Assembly: GCF_000016285.1 (NCBI RefSeq)
Contig: NC_011984.1
Location: forward strand, 147,621 to 211,620
Direction of reading: 5' to 3'
DNA: 64,000 nucleotides
Source of the DNA: Allorhizobium ampelinum S4
Lineage (GTDB): Bacteria > Pseudomonadota > Alphaproteobacteria > Rhizobiales > Rhizobiaceae
Part shown: piece by piece, positions 4,153-10,346 of the stretch
Layout of the letters: every line of letters starts with the position of its first letter
Numbering within the stretch: position 1 is the stretch's first letter
The notes under the pieces: generated by a model
The model's database searches: none
Seen by the model: only the letters and a program-made list of their open reading frames with translations
Told to the model about the DNA's origin: nothing
Position numbers and translations under genes: made by a program

Positions 4153-4857
4153 TCAGATCAGCTTTCTACGAATTGCGAGCGCGGTAAGATGGGCCTTGCT
4201 CCGGACGTCGAAGCGCTTCATAGCCTCGCGGAGCTTAACACGGACGCTATTGTATTTGATGCCCTCCACGTCAGCGATTTCCTCCATCGTCATTCCGACA
4301 GCGATCCATCTGAGATAGGTCGCCTCTTTAGGATCGAGCCAGGCCGCATCTTCCACGGTCGGAGTTGTTTGAAGGAACGAGATGCGGGCATGGAGTTGTC
4401 CGACGGCAGCAGCCGCTGCGACCGCGTCTATCTCACGGTCGAGATCGATCGCTGGCTTCTCGGAAGCTAAAGTGAACATCGACATAGAGCCGTTGGCGGT
4501 CTTGATTGGAACGGTGACCCCGGAGCGGATACCGAAATCGGCAGCATGCGCATAGAAGGCACGCTCTTCCTTCGATTGCCTCGCGCGATCCTGTTCGCCG
4601 GACCACGCAAAAACTTGCTTTCTGGATTTCGCGCGTTTGACGACTGGATCGAGCTTATCGAAGTGCTTGTCGAAATACGTCGATCGCCACTCGCGATGAT
4701 AATTGGTAACTGCAATGGTATGCTTGTGCTGGATGTGGAGATAGGCGTAGCCGGTGAAGCCGAAATGTTGGGTGAGGTCGGCAAGGCCCTGCGTTAGGAT
4801 GCTTTCGTCGCCTTGTATGGCCGCAAGATCGGTCAGCCTGTCCAGCCAGTGCTGCAT
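4153..4857 (-). CDS. traR: TraR, LuxR-type quorum-sensing activator of conjugation
   Basis: The 234-residue length equals Ti-plasmid TraR. The AHL-pocket residues Tyr53, Trp57, Tyr61, Asp70 and Trp85 are all present at the canonical numbers. The C-terminal LuxR helix-turn-helix spans about residues 170-234 ([21 protein letters not shown]). TraR bound to 3-oxo-C8-HSL should activate the tra and trb promoters at tra boxes. GGAG lies 7 bases before the ATG. On the minus strand traR lies downstream of the sugar ABC operon ending at 5244, with 386 bp between them and no strong terminator visible. It looks fully functional. Confidence 0.96.
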
Positions 4858-5243
4858 TTTTTCACTCCGTTTTGGTGATCAGGTGGAACAGGTCACGTGA
4901 GCCCCTCAACGGTTTTATCATATCTGCCCAAAAGCAATCCTAGATTGTGTAATGCAACGTATGGGACAACTGAATCAAGCCGCCGTTCATTTTGTGTGAG
5001 TTTTGGAAGCATTGGGGGCGACTGCTTGAGCCATCTCTGGTAGACCCCCTGAACGACCTCAAATCTCCCGAGGGGCGGATTTTTAGGGTAAAGTCGGAGC
5101 GGCGGTCCCGCGGAAATGCAATAAGACATAGACACCACCCCGTCTAATTAACCCCATGACATCAGAGGCTCTATTATCGCTTCAAGCGAAGCGCCCGGTT
5201 TGGCCGTTATCGATCCTGAACACATCGCAACGGCCGCGAAGTG
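4858..5243. other. Region between the ComA-like gene and traR
   Basis: This 386-bp stretch is the leader of traR and the 3' flank of the ABC operon. An imperfect hairpin at 5219-5245 overlaps the ComA-like stop codon and lacks a following T-run on the minus strand. A short palindrome TCGCTTCAAGCGA lies near 5178. The minus-strand frame at 4893-5138 (81 codons) has no recognised family. I see no tra box and no clear sigma-70 promoter. Confidence 0.5.
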
Positions 5244-6059
5244 TTAACGGGCGGCGTTGAGCCTTAGCACTTCAACATACATAGCTTGGCTCGGCATGAT
5301 GTTTGCGACATTGATGCTTCCTCCGAACGTCGAGAAGTAACGTGTCAGGTCTTCCTTCCAGCGAGTCGGCCCTTCCTTTGGAGAGGTCACTTCGAAAATG
5401 AGCTTATCGAGCCCGAACCGGTCGATGACCTTGCCTATCTCATCTTTCATACGCTCTTCCTGGAACTCCAGTTCTTCGTGATCGATCAGGATGGCGAACG
5501 CGCCGTCGTCGATGAACGGCGCCGCATTGCGGATGATCTCCTCACCTGTGGAAGCCACGTCCTTGGCCGTATCGCGCCAGTTTCGTTCCGGGTGAAATTC
5601 GAACAAGAACTTCATTTCATTTTCTACCGCGACGCGGCGCCAGGACTTCCATGTCGCCTCAGGCACATCGCCGAAGGTGTTCATAAATTCGATCGCCTTG
5701 AAGCCGCGTGTGCGTCCTGCCTCAATCGCCTTCTCGACGCTGCCTTGCTGGTATGCGTAGTGGAAATAGCTGTGGTCAAGGTAGGGCTCCACTCCGAAGC
5801 GCTGGTAAAGTTCGACCTTGCGTCGAACCCATGCCTCTGGGTGCTCGATAACCTGCCGGGTCGCGACCTTGACATAGTCCAGGCGCTCGCCGGCGACTGA
5901 AAGGAAATCCTCCAGTTCGATCAGACCCATACGTTCGACATAGTAAGGCGCCTCGTCAAAGCCGACGTCCTTCAACCAGGTCTGGTGGAGGCCGCGGGGT
6001 TTTAGTTCAAACGTTGGGACTGGAAAAGCTTCTGCCATTGATACTGGTTCCAGGGTCAT
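5244..6059 (-). CDS. ComA/phosphosulfolactate-synthase-family protein
   Basis: The 271-residue protein follows the ComA pattern along its length: KPRGLHQTWLKDVGF, LEDFLSVAGERLDYVKVATR, KVELYQRFGVEPYLDHS, RGFKAIEFMNT, an acidic IDHEELEF stretch, LDKLIFEV and INVANIMPSQAMYVEVLR. ComA joins sulfite to phosphoenolpyruvate to give phosphosulfolactate. Here the usual GGTL segment is replaced by DHSYFHYA, so substrate and chemistry may differ. ATG 6059 is chosen over the frame opening at 6116 because AGGAAGG lies 7 bases upstream. It is the last gene of a five-gene sugar-uptake operon, so it probably acts on the imported compound or a product of it. The family call is fairly sure; the reaction is unknown. 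Confidence 0.72.
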   Translation of the reverse strand: MTLEPVSMAEAFPVPTFELKPRGLHQTWLKDVGFDEAPYYVERMGLIELEDFLSVAGERLDYVKVATRQVIEHPEAWVRRKVELYQRFGVEPYLDHSYFHYAYQQGSVEKAIEAGRTRGFKAIEFMNTFGDVPEATWKSWRRVAVENEMKFLFEFHPERNWRDTAKDVASTGEEIIRNAAPFIDDGAFAILIDHEELEFQEERMKDEIGKVIDRFGLDKLIFEVTSPKEGPTRWKEDLTRYFSTFGGSINVANIMPSQAMYVEVLRLNAAR

Positions 6060-6112
6060 CTTGATGCCTTCCTTTTTAGAATGCGTTGCTTTGCTGTTGT
6101 TAGAGATGCGGT

Positions 6113-8942: not shown

Positions 8943-9012
8943 GCAATATCCTTTTCATGTCCGGCTGAAACTGGCCGGACACCGGATTGCCTTTATGGGA
9001 AAATCAGGCTCG

Positions 9013-10227
9013 TCACTGAAGCAGGTCGGAGAACTGCTCGGCGCCCTCTTCTGGCGACATCGTGGATCCGAAGAACTCCACAAGCATGTCCTCGATCTCC
9101 CCCTCGACATCCGAGGGGATAACCATCCGGGGACGAGGTGACCGTGTCTCGGGGCTGGAGGCGGCTTTCAATGCTGCTTGCGAGCAGACATCGAAGTCGG
9201 CCGGATTGACGTCCGTTCTGGCAGGGATGGACCCTTTCAGGAGGCTGAATTCTGTCTGGGCCTTCACGTCGGCAAAGGCTTGAATAAGCTTATCTTGGGC
9301 CGGAGAAATTGCATCGCCTTTTTTGGGGAAGATGATGACGTCCCCACCCATGATGACAGTGCCTTTGGGCAGCATGCAGCCATATTCCTTACCCGCCGTC
9401 AGTTTGTTCGAAATGAACTCTGCCTTGGCCCAGTCGCCGACGACCTGGAAGCCGGCTTGCCCATTGATCAGCATCTGCGTCGCTTGGTTCCAGCTACGGC
9501 CTGACCAGTTACTGTCTGTGTAGTCACGGAGCTTCGCAAATGTCTGGAAGGTCTTCAGGATGCCTGCTTCATCAACGGTGGGATCTCGCTTGGTGAAAAG
9601 ACGATTGTAGTGTTCAGTCCCGAGATAGTCAGCCAAAATCGAGTAGAAGACGAGCCCAATATAGCCGTCTCCGCCTACCGCCAAAGGAACAAGACCCTTG
9701 CCTTTAAGGGTTTCCATCGCAGCCAGCATCCCATCCCAGTCAACAGGAGGGCGGCTGATCCCAGCGTCGGCCAGAACCTTGTTGCTGTAGAAGACGAAGT
9801 TGACGCCGGACATGTTGACCGGTAGCGCATAGATTTCGCCGTCGCGCTTGGCGACGTTGAGAAGCGCTTCAGGTATTACCTTCTCCCAATTGCCTTTTGC
9901 CGCGTAACTTTGAAGGCTGTTGAGCTTGCCCGAGCTGACCAGATCATAGAACTGCGTGCTGGTATTAAATTGTGCAGCATCCGGTGGACTTCCTGCGATT
10001 ATGCGAGCCACGGCAGCACTTCGCGAGTTATTGCCGCCAGCCGTGGCGATATCGATCCACTTGCCCCCTGCGGCATTAAACGCATCGGCGAATTTCGCAA
10101 TCGCGGCCGCCTCCCCTTCCGAAGTCCATGAATGCATGACTTCGGCAGCATCCTGAGCTCGACCAGTCGTTCCCATCGAAAGCGCTGCGACCGTCGCCGC
10201 GGCAAAAGCTATACCAATCTTGGCCAT
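9013..10227 (-). CDS. Extracellular sugar-binding protein (family 1, MalE/UgpB-like)
   Basis: The 404-residue protein has an N-terminal signal peptide (MAKIGIAFAAATVAALSMG, cleavage likely after GRAQ) and a family-1 solute-binding body (VMHSWTSEGEAAAIAKF, YALPVNMSGVNFVFYSNK, FQVVGDWAKAEF). ATG 10227 has GGGAGGTG about 8 bases upstream; the frame extends further but without a ribosome site. As the first gene of the operon it sets import specificity. The family handles oligosaccharides, glycosides or glycerol-phosphate-like ligands; the exact ligand cannot be read. It is divergent from the regulator at 10347, with operator-like palindromes between them. Confidence 0.93.
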   Translation of the reverse strand: MAKIGIAFAAATVAALSMGTTGRAQDAAEVMHSWTSEGEAAAIAKFADAFNAAGGKWIDIATAGGNNSRSAAVARIIAGSPPDAAQFNTSTQFYDLVSSGKLNSLQSYAAKGNWEKVIPEALLNVAKRDGEIYALPVNMSGVNFVFYSNKVLADAGISRPPVDWDGMLAAMETLKGKGLVPLAVGGDGYIGLVFYSILADYLGTEHYNRLFTKRDPTVDEAGILKTFQTFAKLRDYTDSNWSGRSWNQATQMLINGQAGFQVVGDWAKAEFISNKLTAGKEYGCMLPKGTVIMGGDVIIFPKKGDAISPAQDKLIQAFADVKAQTEFSLLKGSIPARTDVNPADFDVCSQAALKAASSPETRSPRPRMVIPSDVEGEIEDMLVEFFGSTMSPEEGAEQFSDLLQ

Positions 10228-10346
10228 TTCATACACCTCCCTGTGTATTAACTGTAGTGTATCTATCATTACACGGTTTTTGTGTCAACTAGCCTCCGGG
10301 CTTGCGGGGATTGCATGAATTAATACACTTTGATACCGTATCAAAC
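10228..10346. promoter_or_regulatory. Divergent promoter/operator region of the sugar ABC operon and its regulator
   Basis: In these 119 bp I see a perfect 17-bp palindrome TTTGATACCGTATCAAA (10329-10345), one base before the regulator ATG. I also see GTGTATTA (10243-10250) with its inverse TAATACAC (10321-10328), and arms GTGTA/TACAC at 10257-10261 and 10270-10274. The palindrome is well placed for autorepression. The other repeats could control the transporter promoter. Confidence 0.65.

Follow-up and report, generated by a model that had tools for sequence, protein, structure and literature searches.

Opine control of traR, the gene for the quorum-sensing activator of plasmid conjugation, has been published for pTiC58 and octopine-type plasmids, with AccR of pTiC58 described as controlling both acc and arc (PMC6341043), and for the traR copy of pAtK84b that lies beside the nopaline region (PMC6546132). 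Other described plasmids are arranged differently. In the available text of Wetzel et al. 2018 (PMC6341043), traR of pAoF64/95 adjoins traM and is free of direct opine-operon control, its regulation running through TmsP; the available accounts of pLPU83a with RcgR (PMC9601222, PMC13055273) give traR a promoter of its own under repression; and the At-type plasmids pAt15955/pAtAch5 carry their own traR, traI and traM, with transfer of pAt15955 cross-activated by the Ti-plasmid traR with octopine (PMC7856919). Here we analysed traR in a 64,000-nucleotide stretch of the grapevine-associated bacterium Allorhizobium ampelinum (Agrobacterium vitis) S4 (the window, meaning the whole stretch), where an initial annotation had likened its place downstream of a sugar-uptake operon to opine-controlled Ti plasmids. 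Comparison with related plasmids revealed a conserved leader of about 110 bp directly in front of this traR, at 4858-4967, which that annotation had overlooked and which is probably the gene's own promoter. We lean, with modest confidence, towards a traR that would be transcribed mainly from this leader, next to a separately regulated importer operon whose read-through may add to its expression.

The window covers positions 147621-211620 of contig C3 (NC_011984.1, 211,620 bp) within a 6.32-Mb genome of 7 contigs; we take C3 to be pAtS4c and a further contig, C2, to be pTiS4. A tartrate region has been placed on pAtS4c (PMC9219206). In window coordinates, the features at issue are:

3743..4093, plus strand: traM antiactivator gene, convergent with traR (PF09228, 107 bits)
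4153..4857, minus strand: traR, LuxR-type quorum-sensing activator of conjugation (NF010444, 448.4 bits against a cut-off of 250; PF03472, PF00196)
4858..4967, minus strand: conserved traR leader of about 110 bp, delimited by the homology end and alignments; putative promoter
4917..4922, minus strand: -10-like hexamer TATGAT, by its position in the aligned leaders
4934..4952, minus strand: 19-bp conserved element with the dyad CAATC-TAG-GATTG at 4935-4947 (position weight matrix score 20.2)
4968..5243, minus strand: spacer with a 7-bp hairpin at 5177-5194; no match in the plasmid collection

The traR frame thus scores above the cut-off of the curated TraR model, and its distance from traM is 66 bp by alignment ends, or 59 bp between the open reading frames (ORFs).

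The limits of the leader come from other plasmids. In ten non-redundant loci (L009, L010, L017, L057, L058, L096, L097, L099, L100 and L101), DNA homology runs through traR, continues past the ATG and breaks off after 110-112 bp; the first upstream genes of these ten are unrelated save for the pair L017/L058. Across 20 leader loci, only L017/L058 and L023/L065/L102 have first upstream genes homologous at E 1e-5. The upstream genes include octopine/nopaline-dehydrogenase-like and ATP-binding cassette (ABC) genes (L009), polyamine-type ABC genes (L010), amino-acid ABC genes with alanine racemase (L096, pTiB230/85), aldehyde dehydrogenase and aminotransferase (L097), a chemotaxis receptor (L099), an oligopeptide-type ABC operon with an amidohydrolase (L100), aminotransferase and RidA (L101), and a transposase gene facing the opposite way (L055). 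The leader therefore travels with traR across plasmids with mostly different upstream genes, which is what a gene carrying its own promoter should show.

Within the leader lies a 19-bp element resembling TTATGCAATCTAGGGTTGA, found in the window as TTACACAATCTAGGATTGC at -95. A position weight matrix built from 18 loci, the window left out, gives the window site 20.2. The survey's own score null held real sites, and 20 control stretches were used in its place: among them 1 of 223 genes reaches a score of 9 (the highest being 12.2), and a single position in 559,320 reaches 15. The -10-like box agrees with TATAAT at five or more of six bases in 14 of 20 aligned leaders and at three or four in the remaining six. 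When the leader was searched against a plasmid collection, 17 of 72,556 records matched; traR is annotated at the match in 12, and three of the other five adjoin traR, whole or broken (CP021816, CB782 and 32-5/1). A whole-plasmid search for the dyad in ten leader plasmids, selected for having the leader, found a match just upstream of traR in all ten and four matches elsewhere. The dyad was also considered as a tra box and rejected, the best tra-box-like sites (starting at 3480, 63803 and 63892, by a tra-box consensus) lying outside the leader. It is not mentioned in the available text of PMC9601222, PMC13055273, PMC4971678 and PMC13133039, and the traR-promoter literature found concerns other plasmids.

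We then placed the leader among related TraR genes. The survey dropped TraR matches below 60% identity or aligned over 200 residues or fewer, loci shorter than 4000 bases, and L004, L005, L006, L011, L136, L144 and L146, seven loci that duplicate the window or C2 or are fragments; it kept 84 loci, or 61 after near-copies were merged, with L171 fetched later and standing outside the 61. Clade A comprises the 34 of these 61 loci whose TraR is at least 80% identical. The leader is present in 21 of the 34, namely 20 with the element and L026 with a degenerate dyad, seen through its near-copy L067, and in each of the 21 the distance to traM, measured between alignment ends, is 53-70 bp. Among the 13 leaderless loci a traM match falls within 100 bp in one (L106), so that leader and close convergent traM are linked (Fisher 2.4e-8, the rows not being independent by descent). 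The leaderless thirteen are L019 and L025 (both on C2), L070, L071, L073, L103, L104, L105, L106, L107, L108, L142 and L143. L103 is pMP90, presumably a pTiC58 derivative, and L108 (with L109) presumably derives from pTiBo542; L107 is from Sinorhizobium meliloti, L142 is Ach5, L143 is the pAtK84b copy beside nox genes, and both C2 loci merged as near-copies with loci of the A. vitis plasmid pTiCG78. The leader is absent from all three surveyed traR genes whose plasmid or plasmid type has published opine control (L103, L142 and L143).

A DNA tree of traR groups the 21 leader rows in one starred clade, with the leaderless pTiC58-type as sister, and the other 12 leaderless rows in another starred clade. 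Element-bearing rows recur among the more distant TraR genes of the outer clades (14 of 27), and the tree needs at least nine label changes overall, so either gain and loss elsewhere were frequent or some sites were missed. We read the tree as suggesting that an old leader was lost on branches that joined catabolic operons.

Several of these loci have settings of their own. In L104 (NZ_CP079858.1 92000-104000, pAtAG67) the leaderless traR lies downstream of the histidine-utilisation genes hutI, hutG, hutU and HutD, a possible case of non-opine nutrient control of transfer. L107/L145 (NZ_CP021816.1) comes from Sinorhizobium meliloti M270 accessoryB, where one traR, intact and leaderless, shares an operon with a gene of the octopine/nopaline-dehydrogenase family; the second traR of the same record, behind leader-like DNA, is broken. 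On C2, the leaderless traR L025 (C2:225261-225962) follows an ABC transporter run and a pair of oxidase-like genes and has a stop at its fourth codon; the other copy, L019, is intact. Among leader loci, the amino-acid ABC operon upstream of traR on pTiB230/85 has a divergent LysR gene.

Set against the described systems, the locus shares with pTiC58 arc/acc and octopine occ a traR that follows a regulated uptake or catabolic operon in the same orientation, together with the TraR-TraM-TraI regulon. It differs in the leader, present here and missing from theirs, and in traM, which lies 66 bp away here but 485 bp away in L142 (Ach5) and has no match in the L103 (pTiC58-type) stretch. To this extent the likeness to opine-controlled Ti plasmids drawn by the initial annotation stands as gene order and gives way at the leader, which the pAtK84b nopaline-side copy likewise lacks. 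AccR of pTiC58 covers acc and arc in the available text of PMC6341043, whereas no copy of the candidate importer operators was found in the traR gap here. The TraR of pAoF64/95 is 34% identical and its record has no dyad match, a distance too great to decide the leader question. The traR of pAtAch5 (L171, NZ_CP011248.1) is nearer the locus in its dyad, at -90 with a score of 18.4, although its TraR is more distant (64.5% identical) and siderophore-type ABC genes stand further upstream; it begins 43 bp after a hypothetical gene. In pLPU83a, compared by published description only, the rcgAR operon is divergent from traR, whereas the upstream operon here is co-oriented.

That upstream operon, with its regulator, comprises:

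5244..6116, minus strand: gene for a ComA-like protein, closing the importer operon (PF02679, 171 bits)
6113..7237, minus strand: UgpC/MalK-type ABC ATPase (NF008653, 435.5 bits against a cut-off of 432)
7195..8118, minus strand: ABC permease (PF00528)
8070..8942, minus strand: ABC permease (PF00528)
9013..10269, minus strand: extracellular solute-binding protein (PF13416, PF01547)
10243..10345, no strand assigned: candidate importer operators (GTGTATTAA...TTAATACAC; TTTGATACCGTATCAAA), inverted repeats
10302 or 10347..11444, plus strand: regulator with a GntR helix-turn-helix, divergent from the importer (PF00392, 42.6 bits)

The gene order given by the initial annotation is borne out, the ORFs lying in place with family matches that identify binding protein, permeases, ATPase, ComA-like protein and TraR; the divergent regulator is a GntR-headed ORF, and the palindromes at the operon start are real inverted repeats (10243-10251/10320-10328 and 10329-10345). 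The regulator's match to a LacI-type sensor is weak (PF13377, 21.6 bits, under the 26.5 cut-off). The ATPase probably starts at residue 16 of ORF 6113..7237(-), where the NF008653 match begins. By its family matches the importer is of carbohydrate type. Among the matches listed, permease-ATPase-binding-protein sets 65-67% identical in DNA occur in Rhizobium plasmids, one of them adjoining a sugar phosphate isomerase and a LacI regulator and having no ComA-like gene in the stretch shown. An ORF of the Asp/Glu racemase family (12194-12901) lies past the importer's regulator.

The ComA-like gene is rare. Its homologues number 145 proteins at E<=0.001; among the best 120 of these 145, the closest outside the window's own cluster are 87% (on a 2-kb contig), 71%, 67%, 64% (a protein named from Agrobacterium rhizogenes) and 62% identical, and the remainder reach 60% or less. 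The plasmid collection, from which own-genome records were possibly excluded, holds 11 matching records, all at or below 27% identity. In genomes of the family 3 of 394 match at E<=0.001, strongly in its own genome only, and in genomes of the order the one match among 397 at E<=1e-20 is again its own. The protein falls far short of the NCBIfam equivalog cut-off for phosphosulfolactate synthase (52.6 bits against 280), so no substrate follows from the name, and the sulfonate chemistry that it might suggest was rejected on this ground. Solved ComA chains align to it too distantly for residue-level judgement.

Between the ComA-like gene and traR lie exactly 386 bp (4858-5243), as annotated, and again no strong terminator was seen: a consensus promoter and terminator scan of this interval listed no terminator and no minus-strand promoter, and the fold scan found the 7-bp stem at 5177-5194 (-9.6 kcal/mol for the 26-mer) with no T-run, Rho-dependent termination being unreadable from sequence. 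The importer palindromes, themselves guesses as operators, have no copy in the gap. Nothing matching the spacer (4965-5250) was found in the plasmid collection, an 81-aa ORF spanning spacer and leader (4893-5138) belongs to no Pfam family, and an Rfam search of 3400-11600 returned no family up to E 0.1.

From this layout we propose the following course. Transcription of traR would start mainly at a promoter inside the leader, where a regulator probably binds the dyad, overlapping the -35 region of the -10-like box. By analogy with related systems, TraM would hold TraR inactive until TraR and its acyl-homoserine lactone (AHL) are high enough. The divergent GntR-type regulator would control separately an importer that may take up a sugar-like compound, and importer transcripts may run on and add to those of traR.

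Several observations weigh against a promoter in the leader as the main source of traR transcripts. The gap yielded no minus-strand promoter in the consensus scan, and none of the features found in it would clearly stop read-through. The BLAST match upstream of traR is shorter in 10 further leader loci, reaching 52-96 bp; the aligned element stands at -91 to -97 in all of these except L026. The dyad core is not rare, with 4 matches in the window at one mismatch or fewer against 5.25 expected, and general conservation does not single the leader out, 76% of its last 75 columns being at least 80% conserved against 77% of traR third codon positions. What is distinctive is the longer element at its fixed place, not the dyad alone or the overall conservation. 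The leaderless thirteen are not all known opine systems, so lacking the leader does not by itself mean opine control, and the Ti-named pTiB230/85 (L096, NZ_CP072160.1) combines a leader-type traR with an upstream ABC operon. Finally, the genes upstream may not be a random draw. In the 17 leader-type clade-A loci with at least 7000 bases upstream, the upstream gene is co-oriented with traR in 16, against 39 of 66 control genes (Fisher 0.0044), and the co-oriented run includes an ABC ATPase, as detected by phmmer, at 6 of the 17 loci compared with 3 of the 66 controls (Fisher 0.0019), the controls coming from 20 stretches of ten leader plasmids and being clustered, not independent. With this enrichment of co-oriented genes and ABC runs, upstream transcription may matter.

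How far these counts reach depends on rule and background. The ABC count falls to 4/17 against 3/66 with a first pattern and to 3/17 against 2/66 with a second, which missed the window's own ATPase. Taking the surveyed loci themselves as a second background, 339 of 464 neighbouring pairs (73%) are co-oriented, against which 18 of 20 gives p = 0.064; counted as distinct upstream gene types, 15 of 17 are co-oriented (p 0.020 on the first background, 0.12 on the second). Since co-orientation is common anyway in both backgrounds, co-orientation alone says little. Overall there is a moderate hint that uptake operons precede traR at a higher than expected frequency; for this one plasmid, chance is possible.

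A possible but doubtful reading is that traR has two inputs: the leader promoter would set its basal or regulated level, and read-through from the upstream uptake operon would raise it under that nutrient. The presence of the leader, the lack of an obvious terminator and the enrichment of uptake runs would all fit; however, an ABC ATPase is missing from the co-oriented run at 11 of the 17 leader loci, and the transposase gene of L055 faces the other way.

Control might also act in trans, an opine-controlled traR on the resident Ti plasmid (C2) and its AHL activating the tra genes of this plasmid. By analogy with the cross-activation of pAt15955 (PMC7856919) this is possible but doubtful. C2 has its own traI and two leaderless traR copies, 83% identical and each with a co-oriented upstream gene as called here, one copy belonging to a run that includes an ABC transporter; but one of the two copies has an early stop, and trans control does not explain how the local traR is expressed.

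Rather unlikely, finally, is an opine-like arrangement in which traR would in effect close the importer operon and a sugar-like inducer would control conjugation through the GntR-type regulator: the co-oriented operon with its divergent regulator, the gap in which no terminator was found, the ABC runs commoner upstream of leader-type traR than in controls and the similar or smaller gaps of opine-type loci (217 bp in pTiC58-type, 295 bp in pAtK84b-noc, 38 bp in Ach5) speak for it, but pTiC58-type, Ach5, pAtK84b-noc and ten more clade-A loci all lack the leader kept here, no copy of the candidate importer operators was found in the gap, and co-orientation is common anyway. The sugar-dependent transfer put forward by the initial annotation thus draws on the ABC enrichment and on the gap in which no terminator was found, and is countered by the leader and by the lack of a candidate-operator copy in the gap; it is possible and not the likeliest reading.

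If traR is transcribed mainly from its leader, the leader with its dyad provides a sequence marker that may separate own-promoter traR genes from those captured by catabolic operons, and such a marker would let transfer control be predicted plasmid by plasmid; the dyad would be a conserved cis-element whose binding protein is to be sought. Should read-through contribute as well, the timing of plasmid spread could depend on ordinary nutrients from plant or soil. A broader scheme, which we regard as speculative and on the whole improbable, is that Rhizobiaceae plasmids, mostly non-tumour ones, carry a fixed unit of dyad promoter, traR and convergent traM behind varied uptake operons, each feeding read-through, so that conjugation is tuned by ordinary nutrients and the opine control of Ti plasmids is the extreme case, with the leader lost. 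The nutrient here would then be a sugar-like compound handled by a rare ComA-containing operon.

The remaining conjugation features identified in the window are:

1069..3471, plus strand: traF (ORF 1069-1599), traB and traH (matches to TraB and TraH; traF by position only)
3480..3497, no strand assigned: tra-box-like palindrome before traM (15 of 18 positions match a tra-box consensus)
53437..63172, minus strand: trb mating-pair genes (TrbI, TrbL and TrbE-type matches, for three of the ORFs tested)
63172..63720 (C3:210792-211340), minus strand: traI, AHL synthase (PF00765, 258 bits)
63803-63820 and 63892-63909: tra-box-like sites upstream of traI (match to the same tra-box consensus)

The name traF follows from gene order alone, as in L009 and L010, and the contig ends 280 bp from traI. 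C3 carries traI, trb genes, traB, traH, traM and traR together and is a quorum-sensing conjugative plasmid (TraR, TraM, TraI, tra, trb), with traI-trb, tra and traR-traM on one replicon as in class I quorum-regulated repABC plasmids.

Elsewhere the window holds IS110-type transposase genes (the second partial and below cut-off) and an ISL3-type transposase gene, at 16420-18403 and 38538-40268, as well as a tandem of an HlyD-like adaptor gene and an RbbA-type ABC gene (19472-23286). Genes resembling the alpha and beta subunits of NAD(P) transhydrogenase, followed by an AdhP-like alcohol dehydrogenase gene, occupy 25034-30391.

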